A program made the translations under genes and the position numbers. From positions 1,240,001 through 1,304,000 of the forward strand of contig NZ_CP142435.1 in the NCBI RefSeq assembly GCF_039830095.1: 64,000 bases of DNA, in the 5' to 3' direction. Positions 16,884 through 53,217 of the stretch are shown piece by piece (within the stretch, counting starts at the first letter, position 1; each line of letters opens with the position of its first letter). This DNA is from Dolosigranulum savutiense. GTDB lineage: Bacteria > Bacillota > Bacilli > Lactobacillales > Carnobacteriaceae_A. The notes beneath the pieces were generated by a model that made no database searches, had not been told where the DNA came from, and saw only the letters and a list, made by a program, of their open reading frames with translations.

Positions 16884-16953
16884 AGTGGTAGATAGAGGAG
16901 CAATAATAGACTTCTCGTTCAACTATTTATGCCTATTCAGGAGGGTGATTTCC

Positions 16954-18525
16954 ATGGTTGGAAAAAACAATAAACACGTACAATTACGTCAAGAAGCAGA
17001 CAAACAAACACGATTTTCACTTAAAAAATTAACAGTCGGTGTAGCATCCATTGCAGTCGGAGCAACATTACTACTTGGTCAACCGATATCAGTCAACGCA
17101 GAAGAACCAGCTACTACGCAAGCCGACCAATCCTTAGGCGAGTATAAAGAAGCAGCTAAGAAAGACTTAACGGATAAAAAAATTGAAAATGAACATCTAA
17201 ATAGCCTGATTGATAGTGCTGAGAGCAAAGAAGCTGTCGATAAACTTGTCGAACATTACGAGCACCCAGAACTGGCTGAAGATGTTGAAGCAGATGTTAA
17301 AGACCTTAAACTGTACAAAGCAGCTAAAATTGCTAAATTAAAAGCCAAAAACTTCGACAACGCAACATTCTTGAAAAAACTAGAAGATGCTGAAACAAAA
17401 GAAGGATTCGATACACTATTCACTGAACTGGAAGCTGAAGTAGATAAAAAAGAATCACAAACTGAAACCGAAGAAGCTCAAGAAATCGAAGAAAGTGCAC
17501 CAACGCAAGCCGCAGAATCTACGGAAACTGAAATCACTGAAGAGTCGAACCCAGCAGATAAAACAACGGAAACTGAAGTCACATCAGAAACAGAAGCAGA
17601 GGATAACTATGCAGAAGCTGTAAAAGAACTGGCTGACTTGAACCTTAGCGATACTATAAAAGAAGACTATGCTCAAAAAATCAAAGCGGCTGAAGATAAT
17701 AAAGAAGCAGTGAGCCAAATCTTGACAGAAGCAATGGCCTTAGCTGAACTGAACACTAAAAAAGATGCGGCTTTAGTTGAAATAGACCAAACGAACTTAC
17801 ATGTCGATGATTCGAATGAGTTAAAAGGGCGCATCGAAGTTGCCTCTTCTGCCGAAGAAGTGGATAACGTCTTAGTTGAGGCACAAAAACGTGCGGAAGA
17901 ACAAGCAAACCAAGCACAAAATGGAAAAGCTACCACCGAGGAAAAACCGGAAGCTAAGCCAGCACCAGAGAAAAAACCAGAAGATGCCCCTAAACCAGAA
18001 GAGAAGAAACCTGAAACCGATAAAAAACCGGCTCCTGAGAAGAAACCAGAAGCTAAAAAACCGGGAAATAAAAAGCCAGAAGAAAAGAAACCAGAAGCTA
18101 AAAAACCAGATACAAGTAAACAGCCAGAAAAAGGAAAAGAAGCTCAACCGCAAAAACCTGAACAAAAGCCAGACCAACAAAAGCAACCAGACAAGTCAGC
18201 CGACAAAGCTGCACAAGATAAAAAAGAGCAAGAACTAAAAATGGCAGCAGCGAAGGATGAAGCTAAAAAAGAAATCAACAATCTAGCTAACCTATCAGAT
18301 AAACAAAAAGGTGAACTGCTTGCTGGAGTTGATAAAGCTGATACACCAGCAAAAATTGGGGAAATCCTCGACTTTGCACGAAAATTAAACCAAGATCAAG
18401 CACCAAAACAACAGAAAAAACAAGGCGAACGCTTGCCAGACACCGCAACTGGCGCATGGGCATTGGGATTAATCGGTGCTACGGCGACCTTAGCTGGTTT
18501 TGGCATTAAAAAATTCAAAAAATAA
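16954..18525 (+). CDS. YSIRK-type LPxTG-anchored surface protein with helical GA-like modules
   Basis: 523-residue secreted wall protein. It has an N-terminal signal with a YSIRK-like motif (FSLKKLTVGVASIAVGA, 21-37), predicted cleavage near VNA-EE (~49), and a C-terminal LPDTA sorting signal (494-498) with hydrophobic tail and KKFKK. Between them lie three-helix-like units at about 62-104, 119-163, 218-263 and 265-315. The second (AAKIAKLKAKNF, DAETKEGFDTL) resembles the GA albumin-binding module. A T/E-rich stretch and a long KPE-rich wall-spanning region (~328-413) separate these from a further helical unit (430-480) placed just before the sorting signal. Start ATG follows AGGAGGG. Probable adhesin or serum-protein binder; the ligand is not known. 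Confidence 0.85.
   Translation: MVGKNNKHVQLRQEADKQTRFSLKKLTVGVASIAVGATLLLGQPISVNAEEPATTQADQSLGEYKEAAKKDLTDKKIENEHLNSLIDSAESKEAVDKLVEHYEHPELAEDVEADVKDLKLYKAAKIAKLKAKNFDNATFLKKLEDAETKEGFDTLFTELEAEVDKKESQTETEEAQEIEESAPTQAAESTETEITEESNPADKTTETEVTSETEAEDNYAEAVKELADLNLSDTIKEDYAQKIKAAEDNKEAVSQILTEAMALAELNTKKDAALVEIDQTNLHVDDSNELKGRIEVASSAEEVDNVLVEAQKRAEEQANQAQNGKATTEEKPEAKPAPEKKPEDAPKPEEKKPETDKKPAPEKKPEAKKPGNKKPEEKKPEAKKPDTSKQPEKGKEAQPQKPEQKPDQQKQPDKSADKAAQDKKEQELKMAAAKDEAKKEINNLANLSDKQKGELLAGVDKADTPAKIGEILDFARKLNQDQAPKQQKKQGERLPDTATGAWALGLIGATATLAGFGIKKFKK
17935..18192 (+). repeat. KPE-rich low-complexity wall-spanning repeat region
   Basis: Irregular short repeats of KPE, KKPE and APEKKPE encoded by A-rich codons, residues ~328-413 of the surface protein. 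Such regions thread through the peptidoglycan. Confidence 0.8.
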
Positions 18526-18866: not shown

Positions 18867-20936
18867 ATGGTCGGAAAAAATAACAAAAAAGAGCAGTTGC
18901 GTAAGAACGCAACTAAGAACACACGTTTCTCATTGAAGAAATTAAGTGTTGGTGTCGCATCAGTCGCAGTCGGTGCTTCATTATTAGTAGGTAACGTAGC
19001 ACACGCAGAAGAAAACGTAGAAGCTAGATCAGAGCAACCAAAACAGGAACAGTTCAGCTACCAATTTATTGTTAACGGTGAAGAGCGAGCTTCTGTGGGA
19101 TATAATGCGTCAAACGTACAAGAGTTCATGAACTACTTAACTGGTTATGTCAGTAATGAGTTCCCTAACACTAAAGAATCTCCAAGATACGAATGGTCAG
19201 GAAATAGTGTAAAAGTTTATGTTAGTACAAAAACTGAAAATCCAACTCCAGCACCTACTCCAGAAGTAGAAGCTAAGGAAACATACAAATTTGTAGTTAA
19301 GCGTGAAGGTCAACAAGATCAAGTTCAAGAACTTGAGTTTAACTCACGTCAAGAAGCACAGGTTTATGCTGAATCTTTCCAGAAAGATCAAGCACGTGAA
19401 GGTGAAGTACTAGAGAGTGCTGATTATGGTCTTCCAGCAGACAAACAATTTACATTTGTCTACAAACAAGAAGCTCCAAAACATAAAAAAGAAGAGACTA
19501 AATTTGAATACCAATTTGTTGTAAACGGAGAAGAAAGAGCAGCTGTAGGATACACTGCTTCAAGTATTCAAGACTTCATGGATTATTTGACTGGTTACAT
19601 TAGCAATGAATTCCCAGATACTAAGAAATCTCCAAGATACGAATGGGATGGAAATAGCGTAAAAGTTTTCATTGAAACTGAAAACAAAGTTAAAGAAGAA
19701 CGTAAAGACTACAAACTTGTCTTCGTAGTAGATGGTGAAGAAGTATTGTCAGCTGATTACGAAAACCACACTTACGAAGAGTTCTACGCAAATGTTGCAG
19801 AAAACTTGAAAAATCAAGAAGCTAAAGGACGTTACAATACTAAGTTAGTTGTTGACGGTGGCGTATACACTTACACATTTGAAACACGTGCTCAAAGTGG
19901 AGAGCCTGAAAAACACGAAAAAGATGAACTTCCTAAAGAAAAAATCTTGGAGCTATACAAAGAACAGACAATTAAAGACTTAAAAGCTAGAGGATTTAAT
20001 AATGAATTTGTCTTTGGGGCTATTAACAAAGCTAATACAATTGAAGGCATCGACAGTATTGTGAAAGAGTTGAACTTAGAGCCTACTGCTGAAGAAAAAT
20101 TAGCTCAATACAAAGAAAAAACTATTAATGAATTAAAAGCTAAAGGTTTCAATAACAAATTAGTCTTTGATATCATTCGCCGTGCTAAAACTATCGAAGG
20201 TGTTGACAGTGTTGTGGCAAACTTAGACTTATCTGATCTTGACGAAGAAGCAGGTAAAAAATTAGACGCTGCCAAAGCTGGTGCGTTAGAAGATATCGCT
20301 GGCTTAGACTACTTCACAGCGGATGAAAAAGCTAAACTAGAAGACTTAGTAAATGAAGTTGAAAGTTTCGATGAGTTTGTTGAAAAAGTAGATAAAGCTA
20401 TCTCTGAAGCAATCGAAGAAAACGACAAACGTCATAAAGCAGCTCAATCATCAGAAGAAAAACCTGGTGACAAAGAAGAGCAAAAACCAGGTAAAGAAGA
20501 AGAAAAACCAGGTAAAGAGGAACAAAAACCTGGCAAAGAAGAGCAAAAACCTGGTAAAGAGGAACAAAAACCTGGTAAGGAAGAACAGAAACCTGGAAAA
20601 GAAGAAAAACCAGGCCAAAAAGAATCTGATAAAGGTCAGTTACAATCAGCTAAAGACAACGCTAAAGGTGAAATTGACAAGTTACCAAACCTTTCTGACA
20701 AACAAAAAGGTGATCTAAAAGCTGGTTTAGATAAAGCAGATTCACTTGCGAAAGTTCAAGAAATCTTAGACTTCGCACGTAAATTAAACAAAGACCAAGC
20801 GCCTAAACAAGAAGATAAGAAAGAAAACAAAAAAGGTGAACGTTTACCAGACACAGCAACTGGAGCATGGGCTCTAGGACTTGTTGGAGTATCTTCACTA
20901 CTTGCAGGTGCAGGAGTTAAAAAATTCAAAAAATAA
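18867..20936 (+). CDS. YSIRK-type LPxTG surface protein with protein G/L-like beta-grasp repeats and GA modules
   Basis: 689 residues. Signal with FSLKKLSVGVASVAVGA (21-37), cleavage near AHA-EE (~48). Four ~60-residue repeats follow: two near-identical copies (~63-122, ~212-272; YQF-VNGEERA, LTGY-SNEFP, SPRYEW-GNSVKV) and two related ones (~137-202, ~280-340). Their strand-strand-helix-strand-strand pattern resembles the immunoglobulin-binding beta-grasp domains of proteins G and L. Next come GA modules (~361-404, ~408-453; LKARGFNNEFVFGAINKANT) like albumin-binding PAB/protein G modules, a GA-like unit (~466-516), KPGKEEQ wall-spanning repeats (532-585), another helical unit (590-643) and LPDTA (660-664). 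Probable binder of host serum proteins; immunoglobulin binding is inference. Start ATG follows AGGAGG. Confidence 0.87.
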   Translation: MVGKNNKKEQLRKNATKNTRFSLKKLSVGVASVAVGASLLVGNVAHAEENVEARSEQPKQEQFSYQFIVNGEERASVGYNASNVQEFMNYLTGYVSNEFPNTKESPRYEWSGNSVKVYVSTKTENPTPAPTPEVEAKETYKFVVKREGQQDQVQELEFNSRQEAQVYAESFQKDQAREGEVLESADYGLPADKQFTFVYKQEAPKHKKEETKFEYQFVVNGEERAAVGYTASSIQDFMDYLTGYISNEFPDTKKSPRYEWDGNSVKVFIETENKVKEERKDYKLVFVVDGEEVLSADYENHTYEEFYANVAENLKNQEAKGRYNTKLVVDGGVYTYTFETRAQSGEPEKHEKDELPKEKILELYKEQTIKDLKARGFNNEFVFGAINKANTIEGIDSIVKELNLEPTAEEKLAQYKEKTINELKAKGFNNKLVFDIIRRAKTIEGVDSVVANLDLSDLDEEAGKKLDAAKAGALEDIAGLDYFTADEKAKLEDLVNEVESFDEFVEKVDKAISEAIEENDKRHKAAQSSEEKPGDKEEQKPGKEEEKPGKEEQKPGKEEQKPGKEEQKPGKEEQKPGKEEKPGQKESDKGQLQSAKDNAKGEIDKLPNLSDKQKGDLKAGLDKADSLAKVQEILDFARKLNKDQAPKQEDKKENKKGERLPDTATGAWALGLVGVSSLLAGAGVKKFKK
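20460..20621 (+). repeat. Tandem KPGKEEQ-coding 21-bp repeats
   Basis: About seven units of roughly 21 bp encoding KPGKEEQ/KPGKEEE. This is the wall-spanning region and a likely site of length variation by slippage. Confidence 0.9.
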
Positions 20937-20965: not shown

Positions 20966-20990
20966 AGGAGGGCGTAAGCTCTCCTTTTTG
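20966..20990 (+). terminator. Terminator after surface protein gene 2
   Basis: 8-bp stem AGGAGGGC/GCTCTCCT (one G-T wobble) with GTAA tetraloop, followed by TTTT. Confidence 0.9.
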
Positions 20991-48129: not shown

Positions 48130-48168
48130 ATGAGAAGTAAAGAGCCAATAAATATAAGGAGGACTTTT

Positions 48169-51100
48169 ATGAAAGAGCAATCACGAATGTATGGATTAAA
48201 GAAACGAATTATATTAAGTGTATCGGCAGCGACTTTATCAGCAGCTGGATTATTGTTGAATGACGGAGCGGTGCAAGCAGCGGAAGAGCCAAGTGGAGAG
48301 CCCACTGTCGAAGCAGTAGTGAACCAGTCGGAAGAAAGTCATGTTGCGGGAGCTGATTTTTCTGCAGTAGACGAAACAGGTGCTGATAGTGAGGAAACTC
48401 CTGACTATGCTCCGATCGAAGAGACAGAATCAGTCAGATCGTTAGCCGCTGAATTGCGAGAACATGATGCAATTGTTGCTGAAGCGGCTAAGATAGCCCA
48501 AGAAGAAAGACCCGTCGTTGCAGAAAAAGAGGAAGCAGTTTCAGAAGAGGTTCCAGTAGATGAATCAGCAGAAGTTATTGCAGCGAATAACGTCGAAAAC
48601 ACTGCGGAGAATACTTCAAAAACAACACCAGATATTGAAACTGTAGCTGGAGTAAATTCTGAGGTGGAAAATGAAGCAGAAGTTGAGCCAGAAACAGCAA
48701 TCAAAGCTGAATCAGGCACCCATAACGAGAAACCTTTCCAATTAACAAAAGAAATTTATCGTCAAGCAGGTGCGCGGGAGATGTCACGCTGGGTTCGTGA
48801 GGGCAAAACTACCCCAGAAGAATTAGTAAATATGGCGTATCAGATTATTGAAGAGACTGATCCGCAACTTAATAATATCATCGCATTGACAAAAGAAGAT
48901 GCTCTCAAAAAAGCGCGTGAATTAAAAGATACCGGTCAACCATTCTATGGTGTACCGATGTTATTTAAAGGACTAGGACATGCATTAGAAGGTACGCCAA
49001 ATTCGAATGGCTTAGTGAGTCAAAAAGATAATTTAGCGAAGCGTGATGCTCGTCGTGCCCAATTAATGCAAGAAGCGGGCTTTATCGGTATTGGAACAAC
49101 AACTTTCCCACAATGGGGATTAATTAATGTCACAAATTCAGATTTATATGGTAATACACGTAATCCATGGAATCCCGCCCATAACCCAGGAGGCTCTTCT
49201 GGGGGATCTGCAGCTGGTGTCGCAGCTGGCCAAGTTCCAGTAGCATCATCTAGCGACGCAGGTGGTTCTACACGAATTCCAGCCTCATGGAGTGGTTTAA
49301 TCGGAATGCATCCATCGCGTAACACGATGAAATGGGATGGTAACAGTGAAAATAATCAAACTAGTCACTTTGCCTTAATGAAAAATATGGAGGATTTAGC
49401 CGCTTTTTACGAATTTGCTTTAAAAAATGATATTGAGTTAGAAGATGTGTCATTAGAACGTGACAAACCGACAATTGCGTACACAACCAAAACACCAGCA
49501 GGAACACCAATTAGTCAGGATGCAGTGAGAGCCGTTCAATCTGCTGTGAAGTTTTTAGAAGAACATGGTTTTACGACGGAAGAGGTTGATTATCCAGTTG
49601 ATGGGAAAAAATTAATGGAGCAATACTATACGATTGCTGGTAGTAGTTTTGGTAGCTCGCGTATGAAGAGAGATCAAGTAGAATTGCTTACTTGGGGATT
49701 AAATCAGTTGGGATTAACACTAGATCGAGATGATAAAAAAGCAGCTTGGGAACATGCTCACGCAATTGCTGAGCAAATGACAGAATTTCATAAAAAGTAT
49801 CCAATCTTCTTGACACCAACAAATGCTTGGCCTGCTCCAGAAGCAGACTATCATCATATTCCAGATGAATTAAAACCTCTTATGGAAGATATGAGTAGTT
49901 TAAGTAAAGAAGAACGCTTAAAACTTATTTATGATCAGTGGCTACCAGCTTGGGAAAAAACACCGTATACCCAATTATCTAATTTAACAGGCAAACCTTC
50001 TATTAGCTTACCTACTTATGTAACAGAAGATCGTTTACCTATGGGAGTCATGTTCCACACTGAGCGAAACATGGATAAATTCTTATTACAATTAGGTGAA
50101 CTATTTGAACAGGGTGGTCAATTTATGATGAATAGTGACTACTCCACAAATAATTATAAATTACCTTATCATACGGATGCACTTGATGAAATTGAGAAAT
50201 TAGGACTTCTCTCAACAGAAGAGAAACTCGGCTTTAATGATCAAATTTTACAAACTACTTCTAGAGAAGCTGCTGATAAAATTGTAAAAGATGCTAAAAC
50301 GATGAATAAAACTTACTATCGTCAATCTTCTGCTAGTCACCTAACACGGCTTGTTAGAGCAAATAAGGTAACACCAAGACACTTGATTGATTTAGCCTAT
50401 GAAATTATTGAAGAAACAAATGGTAAGTTAAATAATGTTATTGCCCTAATTTCTAAAGAGGACGCATACAAAAAGGCGGATAAACTGAAAGATACGGGTC
50501 AGCCATTCTTTGGTATTCCAATTTTAGCGAAAGGTATCAATCATGTGTTTAAAGGAGTTCCTAACTCGTTAGGGTATAAATCCCGAAAAGATTATATCCA
50601 ACCATTAAATGCAACACAAATTGGTCGTTTAGAGCGAGCAGGCTATATTGCAATCGGTGTAACAACTTATCCACAAGGTAGTTTAAATCATGTGACACAT
50701 TCAGGATTGTATGGTGTAACACGTAATCCATGGAATACAGCACATAATCCAGGAGGCTCCTCAGGGGGATCAGCAGTGGCTGTTGCTTCAGGGCAAGTTC
50801 CTGTTGCTACAACTGTTGATGGAGGAGGTTCTACGCGAGTTCCTGCATCGTGGACAGGTGTTATTGGGATGCACCCAAGTGTGGGACAACTTAAGTGGGA
50901 TCGCAAGAAAGGGATCAGAAGCGACTTCGTAATGACGAAAGATATGGAAGATCTCATAAAAACTTATGAATTCCTATTAAAAAATGATATCGAAGAAAAT
51001 GACATATCATTGGAACGGGATAAGCCAACGATCGCTTATACCACACAATCACCTTTAGGAGGAGAAATTAGTTTAGATGCTAAGCGAGCAGTAGAAGATG

Positions 51101-53217
51101 CTGTAGCTTTCTTAAATGAATTAGGGTACAACACTAAGGAAGTAGATTACCCAGTCAGTGGAGAAGAGACAATAAAAACATTTATCACATACCTGGTGAC
51201 AGCAGCTCCAAAATCAGATAAATATGATCAGAATGAATATGATCCACTAATGTGGGCGCTAGCTCAAACAAGAGATACTCTAACATCAGAAGATATCCAG
51301 AAAGCTAATGAAACACGACAAAAAATTAGTAATGCTATGACAAAGTTTCATAAACAATACCCATTATTCCTAACGCCGACTAATGCATGGCCAGCACCTG
51401 AAGCAGACTATGTAGCGGCTTCAGAAGAATTACAACGACAGATGAAAGATATGAGCGAACTGAGTTCAGAGGAAAAGTTAGATTTACTTTACCAACAATG
51501 GTTACCTGGTCGAGAAAAGTCACCTTATGCTGTGCTTTCAAACCTAGCTGGCTCTCCTGCGATTACATTACCAACGGATATAACCAATGATCGGTTGCCG
51601 ATGGGAATTATGTTCCAAGCAGCGTATGGTAATGATAAATACTTACTAGAGATGGGTAAACTATTTGAGGAACATCAGAAGTTCATGATGAATAGTGATT
51701 ACTCTACAAATAATTATATCCTACCTGAAGAACGTCCAGCTAAACTAATTGTCTATGTTGATGGGGAAAAAGTAGTTGAAACAAAGCGCAAATTTAAAGA
51801 TATTACTGAAATTGAATCTTCAGCTGAACTAGCACCATATAAAGATGTTACTAAATATCGTGTGCGTCCAGATGTAAATCTTAATTTAGAAGAGATAGAA
51901 AATGGAGTGTACACGTATAATTATGGAACAACTTCCACCACAGAGAATCTCAATACAGTTGATGTTCCATTTGAGATAATTGAAGAAGAGAATCCAAATT
52001 TACTAGTAGGAGAAAGACGAACAAAAGTTGCAGGTATTGTGGGTAAAAAAGAAATCAAGACAGTCGTTATTACCTTCCAAGGTGAAGAGTTAGACCGTAA
52101 AATAACAGAAACGGTAGTTCAAGAGAAAGTTGATCAAGTTGTAGAAATCGGAACAAAAGCAGCTAAATTAACACCTGCCACTTCAGAGAAATCAGAAGAA
52201 TCTAAGAACGTTATTAAAGACTACTTCAAACTTATCGCTGACTTCGATGGGGAACAAGTTGTCTATGACCGCAAAGATTCTGATGTTTGGACCTCAGCGG
52301 AACACGCTCGCGAAGTGTATGATCAATACTTGCCAGAAGTTCTTGAGCGTGACGATAAGGAATATCAACGTGTAGATGTCACTTTTGTAGCATCGGAAAA
52401 AGAAGCAATTCTGACCTATGTATTTAAATTAAAAGCAAATCAAACAGAAGTCCCTACACCACCAGCTATTGAAGAAAGTGGATCAGGTCAAGCGGAAGAA
52501 CAGCCAGAACAACCTAAGCAACCAGAAATAGATGACAATCAATCAACTGGGGAAATTCCTGATACAACTGATGAAGATAATAAATTACCTGATGATTCGA
52601 AGATAGAGACAGGAAAAGGTGAAAGTCTCATTCGTCCGGATCAACCAGCATTTGAAGGTGGAGTGAATCATCATAAAGCAGCCACTCATGAAAAACCGGT
52701 ATTTCCACACCATCAACTACAAGCATTACTTCAAGTTGAAAAAAATAACGCAATAACATTTATTGCGACACTGCCAAGTTTAAATGAAGCCATTATAGCT
52801 AATTATCGAATAGCTATACAACAGGCAGAAAATGTGCCGGCTATTGAAACAATTATTCGCCAAGCAGTTGCGTTAAATGAAGAACTTGCGAGTGACGCTA
52901 TAATGAAAGGTAAAATTGATCAAACAGGAGAAAGTACGTCACAGGTTGTGGAAGAAGAATCTGATAAAAGAGTTGATCAATTAACTCAACCGAAAGAGTC
53001 AGCAAAAGAAAAGCAATTAGCGGAAGACATTGTTGAACGAACTCAACCGACAACTGATGATCTATCAGCTGTCAGCCAAGCAAATCAAGATAGACAACAA
53101 GAAAAACAAGGTGAGCGATTACCAGATACTGCTACTGTTTCATGGGTTCTTGGTCTTGTCGGAGCAAGCTCATTGCTAGCTGGAGCTGGCGTAAAGAAGT
53201 TTAAGAAAGACGAATAA
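48169..53217 (+). CDS. Giant LPxTG-anchored protein with two tandem amidase-signature domains and a G5 domain
   Basis: 1682 residues. Non-YSIRK signal (KKRIILSVSAATLSAAGLLL; cleavage near VQA-AEE), acidic spacer, amidase-signature domain 1 (~189-690) and domain 2 (~700-1185). Each keeps the Ser-cisSer-Lys triad: K267/S343/S367 and K788/S864/S888, in contexts NPGGSSGGSA and GGGSTRVPASW. Next come a small beta domain, a G5 domain (~1264-1331; VVITFQGEELDRKITETVV), a further domain with YVFKLKAN, P/Q-rich and GA-like helical parts, and the LPDTA signal (1651-1655). AS-family enzymes hydrolyse amides; the extracellular substrate is unknown. ATG 48169 follows AAGGAGG; an in-frame ATG at 48130 overlaps the promoter. 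Confidence 0.88.
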   Translation: MKEQSRMYGLKKRIILSVSAATLSAAGLLLNDGAVQAAEEPSGEPTVEAVVNQSEESHVAGADFSAVDETGADSEETPDYAPIEETESVRSLAAELREHDAIVAEAAKIAQEERPVVAEKEEAVSEEVPVDESAEVIAANNVENTAENTSKTTPDIETVAGVNSEVENEAEVEPETAIKAESGTHNEKPFQLTKEIYRQAGAREMSRWVREGKTTPEELVNMAYQIIEETDPQLNNIIALTKEDALKKARELKDTGQPFYGVPMLFKGLGHALEGTPNSNGLVSQKDNLAKRDARRAQLMQEAGFIGIGTTTFPQWGLINVTNSDLYGNTRNPWNPAHNPGGSSGGSAAGVAAGQVPVASSSDAGGSTRIPASWSGLIGMHPSRNTMKWDGNSENNQTSHFALMKNMEDLAAFYEFALKNDIELEDVSLERDKPTIAYTTKTPAGTPISQDAVRAVQSAVKFLEEHGFTTEEVDYPVDGKKLMEQYYTIAGSSFGSSRMKRDQVELLTWGLNQLGLTLDRDDKKAAWEHAHAIAEQMTEFHKKYPIFLTPTNAWPAPEADYHHIPDELKPLMEDMSSLSKEERLKLIYDQWLPAWEKTPYTQLSNLTGKPSISLPTYVTEDRLPMGVMFHTERNMDKFLLQLGELFEQGGQFMMNSDYSTNNYKLPYHTDALDEIEKLGLLSTEEKLGFNDQILQTTSREAADKIVKDAKTMNKTYYRQSSASHLTRLVRANKVTPRHLIDLAYEIIEETNGKLNNVIALISKEDAYKKADKLKDTGQPFFGIPILAKGINHVFKGVPNSLGYKSRKDYIQPLNATQIGRLERAGYIAIGVTTYPQGSLNHVTHSGLYGVTRNPWNTAHNPGGSSGGSAVAVASGQVPVATTVDGGGSTRVPASWTGVIGMHPSVGQLKWDRKKGIRSDFVMTKDMEDLIKTYEFLLKNDIEENDISLERDKPTIAYTTQSPLGGEISLDAKRAVEDAVAFLNELGYNTKEVDYPVSGEETIKTFITYLVTAAPKSDKYDQNEYDPLMWALAQTRDTLTSEDIQKANETRQKISNAMTKFHKQYPLFLTPTNAWPAPEADYVAASEELQRQMKDMSELSSEEKLDLLYQQWLPGREKSPYAVLSNLAGSPAITLPTDITNDRLPMGIMFQAAYGNDKYLLEMGKLFEEHQKFMMNSDYSTNNYILPEERPAKLIVYVDGEKVVETKRKFKDITEIESSAELAPYKDVTKYRVRPDVNLNLEEIENGVYTYNYGTTSTTENLNTVDVPFEIIEEENPNLLVGERRTKVAGIVGKKEIKTVVITFQGEELDRKITETVVQEKVDQVVEIGTKAAKLTPATSEKSEESKNVIKDYFKLIADFDGEQVVYDRKDSDVWTSAEHAREVYDQYLPEVLERDDKEYQRVDVTFVASEKEAILTYVFKLKANQTEVPTPPAIEESGSGQAEEQPEQPKQPEIDDNQSTGEIPDTTDEDNKLPDDSKIETGKGESLIRPDQPAFEGGVNHHKAATHEKPVFPHHQLQALLQVEKNNAITFIATLPSLNEAIIANYRIAIQQAENVPAIETIIRQAVALNEELASDAIMKGKIDQTGESTSQVVEEESDKRVDQLTQPKESAKEKQLAEDIVERTQPTTDDLSAVSQANQDRQQEKQGERLPDTATVSWVLGLVGASSLLAGAGVKKFKKDE
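48733..51720 (+). repeat. Tandem duplication of the amidase-coding region
   Basis: Two ~1.5-kb copies (48733-50160 and about 50263-51720) encode homologous domains with shared blocks such as DPQLNNIIAL/NGKLNNVIAL and FMMNSDYSTNNY. The DNA has diverged, so the duplication is not recent. Confidence 0.85.

Follow-up and report, generated by a model that had tools for sequence, protein, structure and literature searches.

Among the described systems closest to the locus analyzed here are surface proteins that join small beta-grasp domains to GA modules. A protein L-like factor of Finegoldia strain 12T306 combines B1 domains with GA modules, two of each (PMC5762925), and within GA modules the albumin site is held by helix 2 and the subsequent loop, where a Phe has been tied to human-albumin affinity (PMC3962080). 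Related modules occur in other surface adhesins: the beta-grasp module of the Staphylococcus protein SraP resembles protein L, yet has been proposed as a rigid stem, and the Lactobacillus mucus-binding repeat Mub-R5 has a beta-grasp B1 domain that is counted in the immunoglobulin-binding superfamily (PMC4047093). The Dolosigranulum protein reported here resembles streptococcal protein G in being wall-anchored, in carrying GA modules that match PF17573 and in presenting small strand-strand-helix-strand-strand (EEHEE) domains whose nearest solved relatives by predicted fold include it, but its beta-grasp domains show no sequence relation to those of protein G and stand N-terminal of the GA modules, the reverse of the order in the Streptococcus proteins L109 and L111, where GA comes before B. 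With Finegoldia protein L (PF02246) it has in common several beta-grasp domains combined with GA modules, and it differs from it in that a PF02246 match is absent. It also resembles SraP and Mub-R5, compared by description, in having beta-grasp modules akin to immunoglobulin-binding domains; the architectures of these adhesins are unlike that of the Dolosigranulum protein. PAB, whose GA module is similar to GA1 and GA2 described below, is not known to carry beta-grasp domains of this kind. On balance, we lean towards reading the protein as a sortase-anchored host-protein receptor that follows the plan of proteins G and L, in which two GA modules would bind albumin and the beta-grasp domains a second host ligand.

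The open reading frame at 18867..20936 of the window (the whole 64,000-nucleotide stretch of DNA that was analyzed; coordinates below refer to it and, like this gene, to the plus strand) begins with ATG, contains no internal stops and encodes 689 amino acids, with limits identical to those given in the earlier note. From N to C terminus the protein comprises a YSIRK signal, four domains designated D1 to D4, the modules GA1, GA2 and GA3, a spacer, GA4 and an LPDTA motif. The YSIRK-type signal peptide (residues 1-49; 18867..19013) scores 32.5 bits with PF04650 and 42.6 bits with TIGR01168, both above cut-off, and the sorting signal (20844..20933) consists of LPDTA at residue 660, a hydrophobic stretch and a charged tail with KKFKK. 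The protein therefore has the YSIRK-type signal, LPxTG-like motif, hydrophobic segment and basic tail of a sortase-anchored surface protein, and the wall scaffold that the earlier note had described from the same stretch is confirmed. The LPDTA motif is also common to other wall proteins of the genome. An acidic, proline-containing spacer (20453..20606) is made of 21-bp repeats encoding KPGKEEQ, for which Tandem Repeats Finder reported 7.2 copies. A terminator-like hairpin with an 8-pair stem and a T tail, which is a pattern match only, lies 3' of the gene (20966..20985), and promoter-like sites were no more frequent than chance. A chance origin of the architecture is excluded because of the identity between its repeats and the matches to curated families.

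The four domains D1 (residues 63-122; 19053..19232), D2 (residues 137-202; 19275..19472), D3 (residues 213-272; 19503..19682) and D4 (residues 280-341; 19704..19889) lie within residues 60-345, over which Pfam and NCBIfam gave no match above cut-off. They had previously been read as four repeats of about 60 residues, two of them about 80% identical. The highly similar pair is real and consists of D1 and D3, at a lower figure of 73% (44 of 60 residues). D4 is similar to both of them (shuffle z of 5.1 to D1 and 4.8 to D3, with scores reached by 0 of 500 and 1 of 500 shuffles, respectively), whereas D2, which showed no significant pairwise similarity to the other three (shuffle z 0.3-1.4), belongs with them solely through its predicted fold. 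Both D2 and D4 are about 20% identical to D3. Among 65 D1/D3 codons compared, 18 differ synonymously only and 21 non-synonymously, and over 60 codons dN is 0.16 and dS 2.07, the latter being near saturation, so that the rate ratio is rough. As far as such a ratio can indicate, D1 and D3 represent an old duplicate under strong constraint, even though the topology predicted for them is also found in the far less similar D2 and D4. The maintenance of 73% identity in D1 and D3 while that topology survives at about 20% suggests that a surface has been preserved for a ligand, with folding constraint or partial gene conversion as alternative causes.

The AlphaFold2 models of D3 (pLDDT 87.0) and D2 (pLDDT 86.6, with one of five models dropping to 63) both show the EEHEE order. 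Since the input alignment was shallow (four rows, D1-D4), their confidence depends on mutual support among the repeats. When these models were compared with the PDB using Foldseek, domains of proteins G and L, together with engineered variants of them, ranked first for D3 and for D2 (E about 1e-3 to 1e-1, with probabilities reaching 1.00 and target-length TM-scores of about 0.75 at best). In VIA-align, almost all of the matches listed for either model were protein G, protein L or derived constructs, with Z of 7-7.7 for D3 (1igd, Z 7.6, 2.0 A over 57 residues; 1mhh, Z 7.4, 2.1 A over 61) and about 7.5-9.5 for D2 (1pgx, Z 8.7, 2.1 A over 64; 1mhh, Z 8.2, 2.0 A over 63), where a Z of 7-8 may mirror a common arrangement and, the PDB being very rich in protein G entries, rank alone does not equal kinship. 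The predicted models of D2 and D3 accordingly present the protein G topology of a four-stranded sheet and one helix (Z 7.6-8.7 to 1igd and 1pgx) as well as a protein L-like beta-grasp fold. The assignment extends to D1 by its identity to D3 and, more tentatively, to D4 by its similarity to D1 and D3 and to two regions of an amidase wall protein considered below. A structural search against viral proteins yielded weak matches only. The AlphaFold check suggested in the earlier note, run on D3 and D2, thus did not refute its strand-strand-helix-strand-strand, beta-grasp reading of the repeat domains, which is supported by prediction. The fold by itself does not reveal a ligand, the small ubiquitin-like fold being widespread.

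Kinship in sequence was assessed with family profiles and with a control set of ten genuine IgG-binding B domains drawn from Streptococcus genomes. The PF01378 profile gave no match in D1-D4, and the PF02246 profile none in D1-D4 or in the whole genome, in each case at E up to 10. Alignment of D1-D4 with the ten B domains by hhalign returned probabilities of 2.4% and 1.1%, and a D1-D4 profile searched against PDB chains found neither a protein G nor a protein L chain; as a positive control, the profile of the ten B domains recovered protein G chains with E as low as 1e-34. Invariant in these ten domains are the residues A-E..F..Y...N, then W and D (including the helix Glu and the strand 3 Trp), and they are not evident in D1-D4 by eye, that is, without residue-level structural alignment. 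The profile and hhalign nulls rule out sequence membership of D1-D4 in PF01378 or PF02246, and their inclusion in the protein G or protein L families is not supported on these sequence comparisons. Given the fold match of the models and the sequence nulls, the domains have a fold in common with proteins G and L to the extent that a prediction can tell, and family membership is not shown. Separately, a Streptococcus protein of about 417 residues (L108, in genome G772) contains two diverged PF01378 domains above cut-off and is possibly an undescribed protein G relative.

The GA modules, by contrast with D1-D4, fall into curated families, and the two clear modules plus further GA-like units previously noticed are borne out by two PF17573 and two PF01468 matches, all above cut-off. 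GA1 (residues 357-404; 19935..20078) and GA2 (residues 408-451; 20088..20219) score 33.4 and 34.7 bits against the PF17573 cut-off of 25 bits, a model that is also matched by genuine modules of streptococcal protein G; as a control, L109, which also bears a PF01378 domain, scores 79.7 bits over two GA modules. In phmmer searches, GA1 is matched to the GA module of PAB (1gab, E 6e-4; GA1 NEFVFGAINKANTIEG, PAB SDFYFNAINKAKTVEE) and GA2 to 2n35 (E 9e-5), and the alignments with PAB (1gab/2vdb) and 2n35 cover the albumin-binding helix 2 and loop. At the aromatic position of helix 2 that contacts albumin, Phe is kept in GA1, and GA2 has Leu in place of Phe or Tyr. Within the genome, PF17573 is matched above cut-off by this gene only, with one sub-threshold match in the adjacent upstream paralogue. 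The other two modules are of the PF01468 three-helix type: GA3 (residues 464-511; 20256..20399) is barely above cut-off at 25.2 bits, and GA4 (residues 591-642; 20637..20792), located beside the wall anchor and common to the upstream paralogue, scores 47.3 bits. PF01468 has 108 matches in the genome, most of them inside one open frame of 6,654 residues (G000:C1:1439706-1459622, outside the window), which carries about 77 copies of a nearly invariant 177-bp repeat, every copy matching PF01468. GA3 and GA4 are not evidence of albumin binding. For GA1 and GA2, judged by their sequences, capture of serum albumin is probable.

Modules related to D4 were located elsewhere in the window by scanning 514 tiles taken from its open frames. 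The two best tiles fall in the same wall protein (48130..53217), which contains two amidase (PF01425) matches, G5, PF01468 and LPDTA; they lie at 51733..51936 (shuffle z 6.7) and 52210..52443 (shuffle z 5.3), with scores of 62 and 55 against 38 for the top tile of any other open frame, and are positioned between the catalytic domains and the anchor. A role as a serum-protein receptor is not expected of such a wall enzyme, and D4-type modules are therefore not restricted to serum-protein receptors.

The gene is preceded by a paralogue (16951..18525) with a YSIRK signal, one PF17573 module, a PF01468 module and LPDTA, whose signal and last ~160 residues are shared with the product of 18867..20936 (56% identity). 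Its PF17573 module scores 24.4 bits, below the cut-off of 25, and the paralogue may be a second albumin-binding protein. The pair is flanked by what we take, from the translated sequences, to be holA-like and ctsR-clpC genes. The closest CtsR outside the own genome is that of the sister Alloiococcus otitis (74%), in which a catalase gene precedes ctsR and the gene pair is absent. The murJ primers published for Dolosigranulum pigrum (PMC10103046) find no exact match, but each matches once with a single mismatch, and the resulting product measures 224 bp, compared with 223 bp as published. This places the organism in Dolosigranulum with good confidence. Relatives of D1-D4 were sought with protein queries in 98 near relatives and with profile queries in overlapping genome sets from the order (395), the class (399), Streptococcus (247) and the phylum (398), and nothing convincing was found in either search; across about 1,200 different genomes (an estimated count, at one genome per species), no relative could be established over the whole domain. 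A scan of genome contigs with D1 and D3 gave no relatives, and tblastn in phages and plasmids gave no match and hence no indication of a phage or plasmid origin. Within one genome per species, D1 and D3 thus look lineage-specific. Two candidates were taken as chance matches, namely a zinc-ribbon membrane protein in which the match covers half the domain (L017, with L018 matching at the same length and region) and a histidine-triad-like protein (L027). In a GH20/G5 wall protein (L019), a D4-like strand-helix-strand region at residues ~505-563 lies between the enzyme and G5 domains; it was matched at E 0.006, but gave no domain-length alignment with D4 and was not significant in the pairwise test.

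In the receptor reading that we prefer, the YSIRK signal would direct secretion and LPDTA would fix the C terminus in the wall, which the PF01468 module and the KPGKEE spacer would span, GA1 and GA2 would take up serum albumin, and the four beta-grasp domains, outermost on the chain, would expose surfaces that bind a second ligand from the host. The architecture, the predicted fold of D2 and D3 and the family membership of the GA modules, on which this scheme draws, were computed directly; the lack of any sequence relation of D1-D4 to proteins G and L, the relatives of D4 in an amidase/G5 enzyme and the Leu at the key aromatic position of GA2 speak against it. That the GA modules do not bind albumin and instead play a structural part, in the manner of the extended PF01468 arrays in giant wall proteins, seems unlikely: the abundance of PF01468 in the genome, concentrated in the 6,654-residue frame, and the fact that GA3 and GA4 are of that type are in its favor, but GA1 and GA2 match PF17573 together with the modules of protein G and align directly with PAB and 2n35. 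Similarly, we doubt that the beta-grasp domains form a stalk that projects other parts of the protein or spaces the GA modules. SraP, whose protein L-like module has been proposed as a rigid stem (PMC4047093), offers a precedent for a stalk, as do the D4-like regions interposed between catalytic domains and anchor in the amidase/G5 protein; however, D1-D4 occupy the N-terminal end, the most distant from the wall, and no further head domain lies outside them, and the sequence of D1 and D3 is kept far tighter than the fold seems to require.

If the beta-grasp domains do bind a second ligand, as the receptor reading holds, its identity can be weighed from the same evidence. Secretory IgA is abundant in the nasal habitat (PMC10589987), and proteins G and L are the nearest folds of the modelled domains, which share their chain with protein-G-type GA modules. 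The same combination of domains occurs in Streptococcus and Finegoldia (PMC5762925). These observations would fit binding of immunoglobulin (Fab, Fc or light chain) by D1 and D3, making the protein a dual antibody/albumin receptor like protein G, but a sequence relation to proteins G and L is absent, the B-domain motif is not evident by eye, and similar modules stand in a non-receptor context in the amidase/G5 protein. The step from fold to immunoglobulin binding taken in the earlier note is hence unsupported, the more so given the SraP stalk precedent (PMC4047093), and we regard this ligand as a guess that is rather unlikely to be right. Alternatively, the domains may bind a different component of the host, for instance a mucin glycan, fibrinogen, alpha-2-macroglobulin or a complement factor, a possibility that we entertain tentatively and short of expecting it. 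The bacterium inhabits nasal mucus, D1 and D3 are under constraint, and the Lactobacillus mucus-binding repeat has a beta-grasp B1 domain (PMC4047093); against this stands the lack of any sequence match to such a family, Pfam and NCBIfam being silent over the four domains.

Dolosigranulum, a genus of human nasal commensals, has repeatedly been linked to a healthy nose, and no serum-protein receptor of the genus was found in the literature searched. In a further reading, which we consider improbable, D1 and D3 would form a new family of immunoglobulin-binding beta-grasp domains without sequence relation to proteins G and L, and a health-associated genus would cover its cells with antibody and albumin of the host. 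Any new domain that binds antibody or albumin would also be useful in practice as an affinity reagent. Should the receptor reading be true, the protein G / protein L plan would have been realized with beta-grasp domains lacking visible sequence kinship, and the binding of albumin, and perhaps of antibody, would connect a beneficial commensal directly, and in a way that can be tested, with the immune system of its host.
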